Under the pieces are notes generated by a model. That model searched no databases. It was given only the letters and a program-made list of their open reading frames with translations, and was not told the DNA's origin. From positions 69,226,734 through 69,290,733 of the forward strand of contig CM057462.1 of NCBI GenBank assembly GCA_030035585.1: a stretch of 64,000 bases of DNA. The letters run 5' to 3'. Position 1 is the first letter of the stretch; every line of letters starts with the position of its first letter. Source of the DNA: Dugong dugon. Lineage: Eukaryota; Chordata; Mammalia; Sirenia; Dugongidae. A program made the translations under genes and the position numbers. This document shows positions 7,961 to 43,300 of the stretch, one piece after another.

Positions 7961-8230
7961 TGCGCCGCGTGGCTCCTCGTTTCTCCATCCCTCCCAGCAG
8001 CCAGGAGGTGATGCCAGGTGGCAGCGTGAACCTGACGTGTGTCGCCGTGGGTGCGCCCATGCCCTACGTGAAGTGGATGATGGGTGCTGAGGAGCTCACC
8101 AAGGAGGACGAGATGCCCGTTGGCCGCAATGTGCTGGAGCTCAGCAACGTTGTACGCTCCGCCAACTACACCTGCGTGGCCATCTCCTCGCTGGGCATGA
8201 TCGAGGCCACGGCCCAGGTCACTGTGAAAG
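7961..8230 (+). CDS. PTPRF: PTPRF exon: Ig-like domain 3
   Basis: This 270-nt exon encodes the third Ig C2-type domain, starting V-R-R-V-A-P-R-F. The two disulfide cysteines are in N-L-T-C and N-Y-T-C, which also carry N-glycosylation sequons. The domain has the W-M-M-G core and ends V-T-V-K. The acceptor is cccgcag and the donor is AAAG|gtcagt. It enters in phase 1, completing V from G|TG, and leaves in phase 1. Confidence 0.97.
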
Positions 8231-11200
8231 GTCAGTGCTCATGGCAGGTGAACATGGCTGCTGTGGGGACAGGCAAGGCTGAGGTGTGAGCACTCTCTCC
8301 TCGGTGCCCTAGCTCTGGAGTCCTCCTGGCCCTTAGTGGTGAGGGAGGGGTTTCAGTTATTAATAGCCTTAGTAAGAATACCACAAAACCGGTAGTCGTC
8401 AGGACAACTCATGGTAACCTCCTGTGTGTTAGAGTAGAACTGTGTTCCATTCCATAACCTTATGGGTTTTTTTTTTAAATCGTGCTTTAGGTGAAAGTTT
8501 ATAGCTCAAGTTAGTCTCTCATACAAAAATTTATACGCACATTGTTATGTGACCCTAGTTGCTCTCCCTATACTGTGACCAGCACGCTCCTCCTTTGCAC
8601 CCCAGATATCCCGTGTCCATTCATCCGGCTCCTGACCCTTTCTGCCTTCTCATCTCACCTCCAGACAGGAGCCGCCCACTTAGTCTCATGTATCTACTTG
8701 AGCCAAGAAGCACTCTTCATGAGTATCATTTTATGTCCCGTAGTCCGGTCTGATCTTTGTCGGAAGAGTTGGCTTCGGGAATGGTTTTAGTTCTGGGTTA
8801 ACAGAGAGTCTGGGCGCCATGTCTTCTGGGGTTCCTTTGTCTCAGTCAGACTGTTAAGTCTGGTCTTTTTACTAGAATTTGGGTTCTGCACCCCACTTTT
8901 TTCCTGCTCCATCAGGGACTCTCTGTTGTGTTCCTTGTCAGGGCGGTCATTGGTGGTAGGTGGGAACCATCTAGTACCTTATGGGTTTTTAATGGCTGAT
9001 TTTTCCGAAGCAGATTGCCAGACCTTTCTTCTGAGGCACCTCTTGGCAGACTCAAACTCCCAGCCTTTCAATTATCAGCCAACTACATTACCATAACCAT
9101 TTGGGCCACCAAGAATAGCTGATAGGTATTGAGTTCCTAGGTGGCAGACGCTATGCTAGTAAGCACAGATTATTTTGTTTAGTCTTCATGTAACACTAGG
9201 AGGTAGGTGCTCTTATCCTCATTTTACAAATGAGGAAACTGAGGCACAGAGAGGCTACATCATTTGCCCGAGGTTGCACAGAAGTAAATGACGGACAGGG
9301 ATTTGAACCTTGGGTGATCTGATTCCCAGCTTACCCCCCAACACAATGCAGTACCAGACCCTTCAGGTTTAATGGCCTTTCAGCAAGAAGGATGTGATAA
9401 AATAGTAACCAAGAGGGGAAGTGGGTTCTCTCTGCCTCATCTTCATGTCCAAGCCCAGAGCCCTGGGAACAGGCACACACGTGTAACAGACTCTTCTCTG
9501 GTGGCCCTGCCTCTAACTCTGCCTCCCTCTGACCTACCTCCATTCTGCAACTCACATGATCCTTTAAAAATGTGACCGGGGATCATGTCACTCCCTTTCT
9601 TAACACCTCTCAGCAGCTCCCGATTGCTTGTCAGAGAAAGAGCAGGCAGCCAGCCGCCTGCTCCATGCAGGCAGCTCGACCTCTCGCTCCCTGTGCGCCC
9701 GCCACACTGACTTTGATGGTCTAGGTTTTACCCCAGTTCTCACCCACCTTGCCCATTGCTCGATCCGTCTCACCTCCCAGTTCTCAGCCTTGTGGGGCCT
9801 GCCCTGGTCACCCCATCCAGGGAGATTTCTGTGTTTTTCTCCATCTCAGCTGCTGCTTCCTTCTGCCCTTCCGTATGATTATTATTGACTCATTTAATCA
9901 ATCTCCCTCCTCCTGGAATAAAAACTCCCTGAGAGCAGGGACCCAGACTGTCTGTGTAACATTGTGTCTCCGGGCCCTAGCATGGTGCCTGGCACCCAGT
10001 TGTTATTGTTAGTTGCCATCAAGCTGATTCTGATTCATGGCAACCCCACGTGTACAGAGTAGAACTGCTCCATGGGGTTTTCAAGGCTGTGACCTTTCAG
10101 AAGCAGATCACCAGAACTATCTTCTGATGTGCCTCTGGGTGGGTTCAAAAGGCCAGCTTTTCTGCTAGTAGTTGAGCACTTAGCCATTCGCACTACCCAG
10201 GGTCTCCCTGGCACCCACTAGGCACTCAGTAATCACTTGTTGAGTGGCTGACTGGCTGTGAACCTGGAACTTCTCTAGTTTCCCTCTGAGCCAAGCTACA
10301 GGGTCAGTGAGGTCAACAGCACCATCACTCCTTTTAATAGCCAGGCAATGTAGAAATTGTTGAATGGTATCTGTTATGTTGTGTATATTTTCACCGAAAG
10401 AAAAGAAGCCAGGACAGCCTCTTAAGAAATCTCTTCATCTGCCCTTTCCCCCCTGCACCCTGTTACACAAACCTGCCAACAAGTGAGCACACGTGAGCTT
10501 TGCAGGCAGCTGCCTGTCACCCAGCCCCACGTGCTTTCTATCTGCGTGGGAGCCTGGGCAGGTCATGCCACCCTGGTTCTGTTTGTTCAGTGAGCCCTTG
10601 CTTGTCACATAAGCTGATGTGGGGACCCATTGAGTCCCGGAAGTGGTGTGAGTAGAGACTAGATGGCCCACAGGTGCCCTCAGAGGTCACTGCATGCTTT
10701 TCAGGCTGTTCTTCACGGTGGGCTATCGATGTCAGCCACACTCGCTGGCCACACTGCTTGGCCAACCTGTGAACCACACCGAGGGTAGGGTTGGTTCTTG
10801 GGGTCATGACCTTGGGCCGCCCTGAACTTCTCTTTTTCTTTATTTTTTCAACTTTTTTTTTTTTTTTTTTTTTAATTGTACTTCAGGTAAAGGCTTACAG
10901 AACAAATAGTTTCTCATGAAACAGTAGTACACATATTGTTTTATGACATTGGTTAACAACCTCACATGTCAACCCTCTCCCTTCTTGACCTTTTTTTTTT
11001 TTTGGTGAAAATATACATAGCCAAAAATACACCATTTCAAAAATTTCTACATGCGCAGTTCAGTGACATCGACTATGCTCTTCCAGTTGTGCTGCTATTC
11101 TCACTTAAGATGAAGGCTTACAGAACAAAATAGTCTCTCATTTAACAGTTAGTACACATGTTGCCCTATGACAATGGTTAATAACCTCATTATCAACACT

Positions 11201-13284
11201 ATCCTTACTCAACCTTGGGTTCCCTATCACCAGCTTCCTTGTCCCCTTTTGCCTCCCTGGACTGCAGTACCTCATTAGTCGCATTTGGTTTTATGGGGCT
11301 GTCCACTTCCAGGCTGAACGGTGAACCTCGGAGATGACTTCACCACTGAACTAAAACGGTGTCTGGGGACCATACTCTCGAGGTTTCTCCAGTCTCCTTT
11401 AGGCCAGTAAATCTGGTCTTTTTTTTCTGGGTTAGAATTATGCTCTACATCCTTCTCCAGCTCTGTCTAGAACCCTCTGTTGTGATCCTGGTCAGAGCAG
11501 TCAGTGGTGGTAGCCAGGTACCACCTAGCTGTACTGGACTCAGTCCGGCGGAGGCCTTGGTAGCTGTGGTCCATTAGTCCTTCGGACTGAACCTTCTCTT
11601 TTGCCCCCAGCTCTGCCTAAGCCTCCGATTGACCTTGTGGTGACAGAGACAACTGCCACCAGTGTCACCCTGACCTGGGACTCTGGGAACTCGGAGCCTG
11701 TGTCCTACTATGGCATCCAATATCGTGCAGCGGGCACAGAGGGCCCCTTCCAGGAGGTGGACGGTGTGGCCACCACTCGCTACAGCATTGGCGGCCTCAG
11801 CCCTTTCTCAGAATATGCCTTCCACGTGCTGGCGGTGAACAGCATTGGACGAGGACCACCCAGTGAGGCCGTGCGAGCCCGCACGGGTGAGCAGGCGCCC
11901 TCCAGCCCGCCACGCCGTGTGCAGGCACGCATGCTGAGCGCCAGCACTATGCTGGTGCAGTGGGAGCCGCCTGAGGAGCCCAACGGCCTGGTGCGGGGAT
12001 ACCGCGTCTACTATACCCCAGACTCCCGCCGCCCGCTGAGCGCCTGGCACAAGCACAACACAGATGCAGGGCTTCTCACCACAGTGGGCAGCTTGCTGCC
12101 CGGCATCACCTACAGCCTGCGTGTGCTCGCCTTCACCGCCGTGGGCGATGGCCCACCCAGCCCCACCATCCAAGTCAAGACACAGCAGGGAGGTGAGTGC
12201 ATAGGAGCATGAGTGTGGTGCACAGCCCAGGGCGGAGCCAGGGCTGTCCTCCTGCCCCAGCCTTTTAGGGTTGGCGCTCTGGGAAGATGAGGGCCCCAAA
12301 TCAGTGGGTGCATTGTCACTGGGATGCAGGGCAAGGGTGTGAGGGTGAGGATCTACCCTCCCCTGCTCCTTTTCTCTGGGTGCCCCTGCCCTCAAGGGGA
12401 ATTGGTGAGACTGATGATGCCTGGGATGGGGGTGTTGCAGTGCCTGCCCAGCCAGCGGACTTCCAGGCTGAGGCGGAGTCAGACACCAGGATCCAGCTGT
12501 CGTGGCTGCTGCCCCCTCAGGAGCGGATCATCAAGTACGAGCTGGTGTACTGGGCAGCAGAGGACGAAGACCAGCAGGTGAGCGCCAAGGCGGGGAGAAG
12601 GGAGGTGGAGGAAGGGTCCTCTTGGTCTCTAAGGTCTGTGATGGGCTCACCCAGGCAGGTGAAGCCCCTGGGGTTTCTCCTTGGGGCTTTGTGGCTCATG
12701 AGTGCCATGTGGCTCGGGTGGCCTGTATGTTTTTATAGTCTTTGTCACCTTGTGCTGGTGACAAAGTCCTTAGGTCTATTCTTGGGTCTTATAAGCTGTT
12801 TGGCTTAATGGCACCACAGAGCCCTAAAGTTTCTCCTTGGGCCCGTATAGCCCATGTGGTCTTTGAGGTTCCTGTGGTGTGGGCAGGGCCCTGAGTTCCT
12901 GGTGTGGTTGTCGTGGCCCATGTGGTCCCCATGGTAACCATGTGGTGTGGTCAGAGCCCTGGAGTCAGTCCCAGGACCATGGTGGGTCCAGAGGGGTCAG
13001 AGTGCAGTCCATGTTGGGGAATGACCTCTAAGTGACTTTCGAGGTCAAAGTAGTGAGTGAGTGCTCCCTGCTCTTCCAGCACAAGGTGACCTTCGACCCC
13101 ACCTCCTCCTACACTCTAGAGGACCTGAAGCCCGACACACTGTACTGCTTCCAGTTGGCTGCTCGCTCAGATATGGGGGTGGGCGTCTTCACCCCCACCA
13201 TTGAGGCCCGCACGGCACAGTCCAGTAAGTGTCTCCTGAGGCCACTGCCTGTTACAGCTGGGATAGGGCACACGGGTGCACGTG

Positions 13285-13327
<43 letters not shown>

Positions 13328-16300
13328 CCCCCATCGACCAGGCGGGTGGTCAGGTCTGCTGGGCCCTAGACTGGACTCTGGTCTAGGCCCTGGGTCTGGA
13401 CCCGGAGAGAGGGACAGGTAAGTGCCCTCCAGTCTGTCCAGGCGGCTGCTGCCCTAACTACTCCTTGCTATCTACCCAGCCTCCCACCCCTCCCTCCCAC
13501 CCATGCCCCCCACACCCGTTCAGGTAAGTTCTGTGTCTGCGACTCACTCCCATTCCTCCATCTCCCTGTGGCTGGGCCGGGCCATCCTCAGCAATGGGAC
13601 CACATCACTTGCCACACCCCAGACCTGCTTTGGCAGTTGTCTTCCCTCCCCATCACCCGTGTTCCCTACTTCATACCCCCACCGCGAGGATTATGTGTAA
13701 GCCACGTAACTGTACTGAGCAGATTACACACGGGCCCAAGTCTGAGAATGTGTGCCCACAGGCCTGTGCATGGCCATGATGCCACATGTGTGACTGTCTG
13801 TAAGGCTGTTTGGATGACAGCTCTATGGTGTTGTGTGTTACTGTATTCCCACCTGTGTGAGACCCTGATGCCGTGACTGTGTGTGTGGACTGCCTGTGCA
13901 ACTGTGTGTGGCAATATCTGACCACCTGCCTGCCAGCAGCACCTGTATGTGTGAGGCAGTGAGTCTGCGACCGTGGGTGATGATGTCTGTAAGACAGCCC
14001 CCAGGACAGTGGCTCGGTGAATGTGTCTGCGAGTGACCCTGTGGCCTGACCACACCACCATGTCTGGGTCTCTGTAGCTGTCCACAGGAGTGGCTGTGGG
14101 GGTGTGGGTGTTATTCTTCGACTGTGGGTGAGACTGAGATCACAGGCAGTAGCTGGGAGACCTGCTTGTGACCGCACAACCATACTGGGCCACTGTCTGT
14201 GAGGCCTGTGTGATAAGGTGGGTGTGACTGTGGCTGTAGCTGTGTGTGACAGTGTGCAATCAGGTGACTGAGACAGCGCCTGCATGACCATAAACACAGC
14301 AATGTCTGTGAAGTCCTCCGTATGACACTGAACTGTGTGTGAATGTGCTATGATGTCACAAGGCTGTGGGCACCCCTCTGTTCACTCGTTCATTTTACAA
14401 GTACCCACTGCTCTCCTCCTGGGAACCAGGCATCTTGCACAGTATAAGGCCAGCAGCATGAACGGACGATATGGCTGCTGCTCACGGGGATGCTGCAGTC
14501 CAGTGGGACAGACAGACCTTAAACACAATTACCTGCGTGTAAGGTGCTGGGAGGGCAGTCCTTGGGTGGTACAGTTGATTAAGCACTTGATTACTAGCCA
14601 AAAGGTTGATAGTTTGAACCCATCCAGAGGTGTCTAAGAAGAAAGGCCTATGGATCTGCTTCTGAGAGGCCACACCCTTGAAAACCCTGTGGCACACAGT
14701 TCTACTCTGACACACATGGGGTCACCATGAGTCGGAGTCGACAGCAACAGGTTTGGTTTTTATTTATTTATTTTTATTGTACTTCAGGTGAAGGCTTACA
14801 GAACAAATAGTTTCTCATGAAACAGTAGTACACATGTTGTTTTATGACACTGGTTAACAACCCCACAACATATCAACCCTCTAACTTCTCAACCTTTTTT
14901 TTTTTTTTGGTGAAAATACACATAGCCAAAGATATACCATTTCAAAAGTTTCTACATGCACAGTTCAGTGACATTGACTACGCTCTTCCAATTGTGCTGT
15001 TATTCTCACTTAAGATGAAGGCTTACAGAACAAAATAGTTTCTCATTTAACAGTTACTACACATGTTGCCCTGTGACAATGGTTAACAATCTCACAACAT
15101 ATCAACAATATCCTTACTCAACTTTGGGTTCCCTATCACCAGCTTCCTTGTCCCCTTCTGTCTTCTGGCCCTTGTCAGTGGACTCCTGTACCTCGTTAGT
15201 CTGATTTGGTTTTACAGGGCTGTCCACTCCCAGGCTGAACGGTGAACCTCGGAGGTAACTTCACTGAGCTAAAAGGGTGTCTGGGGGCCATACTCTCGAG
15301 GTTTCTCCAGTCTCCTTTAGGCCAGTAAATCTGGTCTTTGTTTTTTTTGTGAGTTAGAATTATGCTCTACATCCTTCTCCAGCTCTGTCCAGAACCCTCT
15401 GTTGTGATCCTGGTCAGAGCAGTCCGTGGTGGTAGCCGGGCACCATCTAGCTGTACTAAACTCAGTCCGGTGGAGGCCTTGGTAGCTGTGGACAATTAGT
15501 CCTTCGGACTAATCTTTTCCTTGTACCCTGTTCTCTTTATTCTCCCTTGCTCCCGAAGGGATGAGACCAGTGGACTATCTTAGATGGCCGCTCACAGGCT
15601 TTTAAGACCCCAGACACTACTCACCAAGGTAGAATGTAGAGCATTGTCTTTATAAGCTGTGTCATGCCAGTTGAGCTAGATGTTCCCAGAGACCATGGTC
15701 CCCACAGCCCTCCGCCCAGCAATTCAGTCCCACAGGGAGTTTCGATGTGTCTATGGGACTTCCATGACCTTTACTTGTACAGGTTGTGCTAGTTTCCCCT
15801 GTATTGTGTACTGTCTCACCCTTCACCCAAGATACCACTTATCTATTGCCTATTTAATATTCCCCCCCCACCCCTCCCATCCCTGGTAACCAACAAAGAT
15901 TATTACATTTTGTGTGTGAGCTTTTTCATGGGTTTTTACAATAGAGGTCTCATACAGTATTTGTCCTTTTGTGATTGACTTATTTCACTCAGCAGAATGT
16001 CCTCCAGTTTCGTCCGTGTTAGGAGATGGTTCACAGATTCATTGTTCTTCCTCGTTGCATAGTACTCCATTGTGTGTATGTACCATAGTTTGTTTATCCA
16101 TTCATCTGTTGATGGGCATCTAGGTTGTTTCCATCGTTTTGCTATTGTGAACAATGCTGCCATGAACATAGGTGTGCATATGTCTATTCGAGTGACGACT
16201 CTTATTTCTCTAGGATATATTCCTAGGAGTGGAATTGCTGGATCGAATGGTATGTCTATTTCCAGCTTTCTGAGGAAGCGCCATATCATTTTCCAAAATG

Positions 16301-40300: not shown

Positions 40301-43300
40301 CAACCTGGAGGTGAACAAGCCCAAGAACCGCTATGCAAATGTCATTGCCTACGACCACTCTCGAGTCATCCTCACCTCCATCGATGGTGAGCTATCCCCT
40401 TGCTGTCCTCCCCCTTGCTGGCTGGGGTAACATTTCACCCTACAGAAGGGACCTTCGAGTCCCAGGGCTGCACTGCGGGGCGGTGGACTGAGCTGGGGGC
40501 TCCGGGATAATGCCTTCCTACATCCTTTCCCGTCCAACAGGTGTCCCTGGGAGTGACTACATCAATGCCAACTACATCGATGGCTACCGCAAGCAGAATG
40601 CCTACATTGCCACACAGGGGCCCCTGCCTGAGACCATGGGTGACTTCTGGCGGATGGTGTGGGAACAGCGCACAGCCACTGTGGTCATGATGACACGGCT
40701 GGAGGAGAAGTCCCGGGTAAGCCTGCAGGGCCCTACCAGGAGGCAGGCTGAGAGCTACTCATCTTCCGGGTGATTTTGGGCACCTCTTCTGTCCCTGGGG
40801 AAAGAGGTTCCTTAGGGTATTCCCCAAGTGCTGTTGTTTTCCTGGGGTGTTAACATGGTCCCCGGATACTGGAGTGTTCCTGGGTGTTAGTATGTTCCCC
40901 AGATACTTGAATGTTTTAGGAGTATTAGCATGTTTCCCAGATACTGGTATACTTCTGGGATGTTAGCGTGTTCCCCAGATACTGGAGTGTTCCTAGGGTA
41001 TTAGCATGTTCCCCAGACACTGGAGTGTTCCTGGGATGTTAGCATGTTCCTCAGGCACTGGAATGTTTGTGGGCTATTAGCGTGTTCCCTAGATATTTTA
41101 ATGTTTCTGGGCTATTAGCATGTTCCCCAGATACTGGGGTGTTGCGGGGATGTTAGCATGTTCCCCAGATGCTAGTGGGCTCCTAGGATGGTAATATGAT
41201 TTGCCAGATGCTGTCATTCTCTGGGAATGTTAATATGTTCCCCAGCTGTTGGTATGTTCCCGGGATGTTCACATGTTCCCCAGATGCTGATGTGTTCCTG
41301 GGGTACTAATACATCTCCTAAGTTAATCAGTGGAAAGAGCTGCTGTATCTGCTTTTGTACTGCAAAGCATTGACTGGAACGTAAAATTTACATAGCTTGA
41401 AAATGACACATAAATGTTATGGGTAAATTTGGCAGAAAATGTGCCTGGTGCGATCCGGTCATGAATAAATAAATTTCAATTACGACCGTCATTCCACAAG
41501 CTAGGGTGGGGGTGGGGACATAGCACAAGGACCTGGTATGGCGTGTTTTTGGGTAGGAAGACAGTGGATCTGGGAGTTCAGGGCTGGGACCTTGCAGCCA
41601 GGTAGGCTATACCCTCTGACCTTCTACCCCTGGGTCCCTTACCATCTGACCTATTGGGCACCCTCTAAACGTCATCACCCTCAACCCTGCCCCTGCTTGT
41701 CCCTTTGCAGGTAAAGTGTGATCAGTACTGGCCGGTTCGTGGTGCTGAGACCTATGGCCTCATTCAGGTGACCCTGCTGGACACAGTGGAGCTAGCCACC
41801 TATACGGTGCGCACTTTCGCACTCCACAAGGTACGCTTCCCCCCACCCCCACCCCCCTGCCGTGCCCACACCCTGCCCCTGGTCATGTAAGGGCAGGGGC
41901 CTGAGCATGGTATGCTGGTGAAAGTGGGAGCCCCGTGTGTTAGAGGGTCAGTGGCTTGGAAGTGTTTGAATCAGTGTGGGCGGCCTTTGGCTTGGGTGGA
42001 ATGTGTGAGGACAGCAGTGCAAGCTCCTTCAAGCTGCCTCATGTCATTTCTGAGTCTATCAGAGGGCAGTGGGTCTGACCTCAGAGGTCAGGTCATTGTG
42101 GCCTTAGTCTGTAGCAGGGAGACTCCTAGTTACACCGTCTCTCTGCACCTTCCTCCCCAGAGTGGCTCCAGTGAGAAGCGGGAGCTGCGTCAGTTCCAGT
42201 TCATGGCCTGGCCAGACCACGGGGTCCCCGAGTACCCAACCCCCATCCTGGCCTTCCTGCGGCGGGTCAAGGCCTGCAACCCGCTAGATGCAGGGCCCAT
42301 GGTGGTGCACTGCAGGTGAGGGGTACAGTGCCCCCAAAGGGAGTGGGTGGGTGGGGTGGACCTGCGCTCAAGCTGAGCTCGTGTCCTGCAGCGCGGGCGT
42401 GGGCCGCACAGGCTGCTTCATCGTTATTGACGCCATGCTGGAGCGGATGAAGCACGAGAAGACGGTCGACATCTACGGCCATGTGACGTGCATGCGATCA
42501 CAGCGGAACTACATGGTGCAGACGGAGGACCAGTACGTGTTCATCCATGAGGCGCTGCTGGAGGCTGCCACGTGTGGGCACACGGAGGTGCCTGCTCGCA
42601 ACCTCTACGCCCACATCCAGAAGCTGGGCCAAGTGCCTCCTGGGGAGAGCGTTACTGCCATGGAGCTTGAGTTTAAGGTGGGGCCCTGGGGAGGGCCTGG
42701 CTGGGCTCCAGGGGCCTGGACTGGGTCATGGGACTATCTCCCAGGCAGCTGTGCCTGACCAGCCCTTCCCTCTCACCAGTTGCTGGCCAGCTCCAAGGCC
42801 CACACGTCCCGCTTCATCAGCGCCAACCTGCCCTGCAACAAGTTCAAGAACCGCCTGGTGAACATCATGCCATATGAGCTGACCCGTGTGTGTCTGCAGC
42901 CCATCCGTGGCGTGGAGGGCTCTGATTACATCAACGCCAGCTTCCTGGATGGCTATAGGTCAGCATGTTTGTGACTGCCCACCACGCCCGGTGGATACCC
43001 AGGCCTGCGCCTGGTCTGCTGGGGGGCCCAGCAGAGTAGGGCTAGTCCAGAAAACCAGAGTGGGCTGGATAGAGCAGTGAGAGCTTCCTGGAGGAGGGGC
43101 GACTTGCCAGTCTTAGGGGAGGGCCTGTGGGCAGCAGCAGCTTCAGCATGTACAGTCTTGTGTCCTCCCCCAGACAGCAGAAGGCCTACATAGCCACTCA
43201 GGGGCCTCTGGCAGAGAGCACCGAGGACTTCTGGCGCATGCTCTGGGAGCACAATTCCACCATCATCGTCATGCTGACCAAGCTTCGGGAGATGGGCAGG

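Follow-up and report, generated by a model that had tools for sequence, protein, structure and literature searches.

A target-site duplication beside an antisense L1 at the PTPRF FN1-FN2 splice acceptor of the dugong

Introduction

How might a splice acceptor survive the arrival of an L1 element only 24 nt upstream of its exon? Most of the retroelement insertions known at acceptors are disease alleles. An initial sequence-only reading of a Dugong dugon locus proposed that an antisense L1 had entered the polypyrimidine tract in front of an exon coding for fibronectin domains FN1-FN2, and that the resulting target duplication restored the acceptor. We followed up this proposal in a window of 64 kb (the whole stretch of DNA analysed, 64,000 nt, to which all coordinates refer). 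The insertion is known from one assembly.

Results

The FN1-FN2 exon of PTPRF

The + strand of the window carries PTPRF (LAR). The 193-residue translation of 11613-12191 includes two fn3 stretches and is closest to PTPRF (PDB 6tpw), followed by PTPRD and PTPRS. As 188 of the 192 aligned residues (counted on the alignment) are identical to PDB 6tpw, the proposed 582-nt FN1-FN2 exon is confirmed (Table 1), and it is intact. The exon ending at 8230, when joined to it, gives an open frame with zero stops. Further PTPRF exons extend up to 44873, according to a tblastn search with a human PTPRF sequence as the query. The next PTPRF exon has a nearly tract-less acceptor (12421-12440), with a pyrimidine fraction of 0.35 and the lowest crude matrix score of 19. 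The elephant origin assumed in the initial reading is probably wrong, judging by globin and myoglobin comparisons: among four beta-like exons, the best shares 60 of 75 residues with mammoth (3vre_B); an alpha-globin exon reaches 122.4 bits against mammoth and up to 129.9 against alpha subunits from other mammals (tandem-alpha constructs excluded); and elephant (1emy) comes 14th for a myoglobin exon.

Table 1. Features at the 3′ end of the PTPRF intron
Feature	Coordinates	Strand	Basis
PTPRF intron, Ig exon to FN1-FN2 exon, 3380 nt	8231..11610	+	GTCAGT after 8230; joined frame open
TCATGAC, putative branch site of the ancestral intron (-37 without the L1)	10804..10810	+	branch scoring
Left copy of the target-site duplication, CTGAACTTCTCTTTT	10822..10836	+	sequence, match search
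5′-truncated L1 3′ end, 750 nt	10837..11586	- (antisense to PTPRF)	repeat family, siblings, ORF2 pieces
L1 poly(A) tail as degenerate poly(T)	10837..10873	-	21 T at 10853-10873; T runs in siblings too
Top-scoring decoy acceptor in L1 (150 nt with a stop added if used)	11441..11460	+	matrix, frame test
GACTGAA, best-scoring candidate branch heptamer; putative branch A 11590 at -21	11585..11591	+	score 3.7; function inferred
Right copy, CTGAACCTTCTCTTTT, serving as polypyrimidine tract	11587..11602	+	match search, sibling comparison
GCCCCCAG, intron end; the putative nick precedes it (TTTT/GC)	11603..11610	+	sequence; nick inferred
PTPRF FN1-FN2 exon, 582 nt	11611..12192	+	PDB 6tpw identity; GTGAGT next

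The antisense L1

The segment 10837-11586 is a dispersed repeat with at least 41 scored matches, itself and a 71-nt fragment included (40 of 10,878 first-look candidates were scored). The full-length scored matches of the 750-nt repeat are 88-91% identical. Among 20 sibling copies, 19 extend beyond the base equivalent to 11586, the exception (L027) ending about 6 nt before it. The 5′ ends of the siblings are scattered, which fits the expectation for truncation. One longer copy, L030, encodes on the matching strand parts of a reverse transcriptase (RVT_1, 7.5e-33), which is nearest to human L1 ORF2p, and of an endonuclease (Exo_endo_phos, 2.9e-19). Sibling homology was followed to about 1.37 kb, short of the reverse transcriptase, so that the link of the latter to the 3′ end is based on order and orientation. 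Judged from these comparisons, 10837-11586 is the 3′ end of an L1, antisense to PTPRF. The proposed antisense L1 within the polypyrimidine tract is supported. It had also been claimed that everything upstream of the last 24 intron nucleotides is L1-derived; the L1 does end there, but it accounts solely for 10837-11586, beyond which lies host intron.

The own branch of the PTPRF L1 was estimated at 0.038 substitutions per site (0.029 without CpG sites), assuming a star-like L1 family and with siblings chosen by similarity. Substitution rates are in the range of 1-2.2e-9 per site and year, at which the insertion would be, very roughly, 15-40 million years old.

Several other repeat features were observed. 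In a later PTPRF intron, another antisense member of this L1 family, with 89% identity to the first, occupies 14776-15508 and beyond and continues past the truncation point of the first. There, the antisense L1 reads CTAATCTTTTCCTTGT...CTCCCGAAG (15508-15558; also siblings L009-L026 and L028), that is, a branch-like motif, a long pyrimidine tract and an AG, amounting to a ready-made antisense acceptor in the longer copies. The L1 3′ end contains an internal imperfect duplication (10880-10992 and 11103-11216, 80%), shared by all four siblings checked. In the same intron as the first copy, a 61-nt fragment (10348-10407) is 80% like part of the PTPRF L1 in reversed orientation. The region 8461-8990 looks by eye like a diverged L1 3′ end of unchanged orientation, but blastn of the L1 against this region found no match at 1e-5.

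The duplicated flanks

The two flanking words, CTGAACTTCTCTTTT and CTGAACCTTCTCTTTT, match in 15 letters and differ by a single extra C. They directly abut the L1 tail and the truncation point, respectively. No third match to the right copy within 2 edits is present on either strand of the 64 kb. Flank pairs were also compared for 16 of the 20 siblings, the other four being without a resolved 5′ end. A duplication scoring 10 or more was found in 7 of the 16 compared to 3 of 240 mismatched pairs, while nine of the 16 had none. The seven sibling duplications are 10-19 nt long; five end in TTTT, one in TTTTA and one in neither. The flanking words are therefore a true target-site duplication, as the sequence-only reading had held, on account of both the missing third match and the sibling control.

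With CT common to L1 and target at this point, the junction cannot be placed exactly, and three of 19 siblings even have CTGA. By the sibling comparison, the right flank from 11587 onward is not L1. As proposed, pyrimidines were kept beside the acceptor.

Branch site and acceptor scores

Candidate branch sites were scored with bovine frequencies for the nnyTrAy motif (T 91.56%, A 98.64%; distance 28.8 +/- 11.2), as given in PMC8531310. The best candidate, GACTGAA, takes GA from L1 and CTGAA from the duplication, with CT or CTGA common to both. In the empty site obtained by joining the flanks, CCCTGAA (-21) and TCATGAC (-37) are level at 3.7; when the empty site is built with the left copy instead, TCATGAC scores 3.8 and CCCTGAA 3.6. 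The insertion shifted TCATGAC 765 nt away. The best score is 3.7 for both the present and the empty site and drops to 1.1 for a construct lacking the duplication; by these scores, one of the two equal branch candidates owes its survival to the duplication. The predicted U2 pairing of the branch heptamer is -0.3 kcal/mol before the insertion and -2.1 kcal/mol now. The proposal that CTGAAC is a branch-point core holds insofar as its CTGA scores best. However, the heptamer is degenerate, the branch A being followed by another A in place of a pyrimidine. It ranks 13th of the 18 PTPRF acceptors scored (of 19; the one at 40541 was left out here and included in the matrix ranking), and the equal candidate TCATGAC had been overlooked. 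In the homologous exons of two paralogues (PTPRS-like and PTPRD-like by label), the AG is at the same place and the best branch candidates are at -20 and -22.

With a crude matrix (18 training sites), the FN1-FN2 acceptor ranks 13th of 19. It is outscored by 11 of 220 other AGs, namely 4 of 39 in L1 and seven in host intron. Since the matrix fails to separate real acceptors from decoys, these scores support relative statements only. Each of six L1 decoys tested brings a stop, and skipping of the FN1-FN2 exon is in frame and stays open. The decoy junction CCAGCTCTGTCTA (11457-11469) differs in one letter from the true junction CCAGCTCTGCCTA (11607-11619), 150 nt downstream; this similarity is probably coincidental.

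Alternative explanations

Both CTGAACTTCTCTTTT and CTGAACCTTCTCTTTT are C/T-rich, and one might take them for chance pyrimidine-rich words. Yet of 20,000 random 60-nt sequences modelled on the left flank (first-order composition), 2 held a match within 1 edit, as did 17 of 20,000 modelled on the acceptor itself. Together with the exact abutment of the copies on tail and truncation point, this leaves the idea with practically no credence, and on the random-sequence trials a chance repeat was rejected. Another idea is that the right flank is decayed L1, which would have supplied the branch site, the pyrimidines and perhaps the AG. The antisense L1 is indeed pyrimidine-rich at the same point (CTAATCTTTTCCTTGT...), besides the CTGA shared with three of 19 siblings. 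Against this, identity between the window and 19 siblings, taken in 8-nt blocks, is 0.79-0.99 for the six that run to 11585 and falls to 0.64, 0.61, 0.38 and 0.61 for the four that follow; the copy from 14776 onward continues as L1 with letters unlike the PTPRF right flank; and the left copy agrees in 15 letters with one extra C. We consider a decayed L1 flank very improbable. It had been named beforehand as one finding that would overturn the proposal, and it did not materialize, as 19 of the 20 siblings carry other letters beyond the junction. The right flank as L1 was rejected on this count. An acceptor derived from the transposon, with both tract and AG inside the element, was rejected as well, given that the last 24 nt diverge from the 19 siblings.

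Two further explanations accept the duplication and concern its consequences. The branch point might now be an L1 adenine (A11573, A11576 or A11586), the intron end having been rebuilt from L1 parts. Although the retained CTGA motif is degenerate and L1 offers scored candidates, CCATTAG (-35, 1.4), the runner-up at the present site, and GGTCCAT (-38, 0.1), both fall below GACTGAA (3.7), and A11586 has a branch score of -3.0; we therefore hold an L1 branch point to be quite unlikely. It is also conceivable, if on balance rather unlikely, that the insertion is partly harmful, with some transcripts skipping the 582-nt exon or taking a decoy AG in L1. The two NF1 insertions of like geometry (see Discussion) led to exon skipping in both cases, skipping here would leave the frame open, and four of the L1 AGs outscore the true acceptor. 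Antisense L1s are furthermore described as attracting splicing repressors and being selected against near exons (PMC6108849). On the other hand, the 0.038 substitutions per site estimated for its own branch imply that the insertion has lasted long, and six of six tested L1 decoys yield a stop.

Discussion

Proposed insertion mechanism

In target-primed reverse transcription as described in PMC3219598, priming occurs from a T-rich end at the nick, which pairs with the poly(A) tail of the element, and a short stretch by the nick is duplicated. Its hallmarks are found in PTPRF: a poly(A) tail (21 T), a duplication abutting both ends, variable 5′ truncation and, in one longer relative (L030), ORF2 endonuclease and reverse transcriptase. 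We propose that the L1 endonuclease nicked the PTPRF coding strand 8 nt ahead of the exon, at the point in the polypyrimidine tract marked by the slash in CTTCTCTTTT/GCCCCCAG. The putative nick reads TTTT/GC, so that the T run of the L1 nick consensus, TTTT/AA, is present and its AA is absent. Reverse transcription would have started from the exposed TTTT with the L1 poly(A) tail as template, which fixes the antisense orientation, and the 16 nt preceding the nick would have been duplicated. By the strand logic of target-primed reverse transcription, the T-richness of the coding-strand tract means that priming there would force an antisense element and that the duplication would take in the tract. 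With the tract duplicated, the exon would have retained its own last 24 intron nucleotides (CTGA, pyrimidines and CAG), the 750 nt of L1 lying just upstream. Splicing would continue at the old AG via A11590 (-21) in the retained CTGA, the first two letters of its heptamer being supplied by L1. The empty site is expected to carry a single CTGAAC-TTCTCTTTT directly before GCCCCCAG, without L1. We consider this scheme as a whole, from the nick in the tract to the continued use of the old AG and A11590, to be probable.

The initial wording that the duplication restored the acceptor is thus only partly apt. The tract was duplicated, but the AG and the last 24 nt were never lost; the wording is loose because, when priming from the tract yields an antisense element, the tract itself stays next to the exon. 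What the duplication seems to have left, judging by the sequence, is a usable splice site.

A more specific proposition is that PTPRF has a chimeric branch site, part host and part L1, which has endured for millions of years, such an insertion being survivable when the duplication passes the branch adenine. One ancestral branch candidate would have been displaced and another kept, its heptamer completed by L1 letters. We put this forward tentatively and think it somewhat more likely to be wrong than right.

Comparison with known systems

LINEs are depleted within 50 bp of exons in human and 100 bp in mouse (PMC3088655), and strong negative selection has been reported for young antisense L1s near exons (PMC6108849). 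The PTPRF L1, 24 nt from the acceptor, lies inside the LINE-depleted zone of PMC3088655. In view of this depletion and selection, its persistence is unusual, its fixation being presumed. A literature search, mainly of open-access papers, found no fixed L1 of such kind and no report of this PTPRF insertion; PMC8675739, PMC7969005, PMC10284601 and PMC11219930 yielded nothing decisive. The insertion is apparently tolerated, and the kind of event is already known from merle dogs and NF1.

In canine merle, a reverse-oriented SINE is located at the PMEL intron 10/exon 11 boundary with a 15-bp duplication, and shorter tails permit normal splicing (PMC7349775). As far as that account goes, the likeness to PTPRF consists in an antisense retroelement at an acceptor, the original acceptor on the exon side and a branch point pushed off; PTPRF, too, has an antisense element and an exon-side duplication ending before the acceptor. 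Merle, however, involves a dog SINE, a phenotype governed by tail length, plus a cryptic acceptor inside the element, whereas in PTPRF the element is a longer L1, apparently tolerated, and a candidate branch site lies inside the retained copy.

In NF1, two de novo antisense Alus, full or nearly full, are inserted in polypyrimidine tracts, and the exon is skipped; the poly(T) is 121 bp in one and was not estimated in the other (PMC3219598). The duplications reported there, TTGTCTTTCTCTTTTTT (-28 to -12) and TGTTTGTTTGTTTTTT (-20 to -5), have no adenine in either. A third tract Alu in the same source, associated with a 71-bp deletion and without a duplication, causes exon skipping too. PTPRF shares with the two duplicated alleles a putative L1-endonuclease nick after a T run, the antisense orientation, a duplication of 16-17 nt and a tract and AG on the exon side. 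It differs from them in that its retained stretch has a TNA motif; the tails and the element differ as well. Since the NF1 duplications lack an adenine and the exon is skipped, the retained adenine may be what separates PTPRF from the NF1 outcome, an analogy drawn from very few alleles. An old, apparently tolerated insertion with a legible duplication offers a natural contrast to the NF1 alleles, and suggests a rule by which whether the duplication spans the branch adenine would predict which insertions break a gene.
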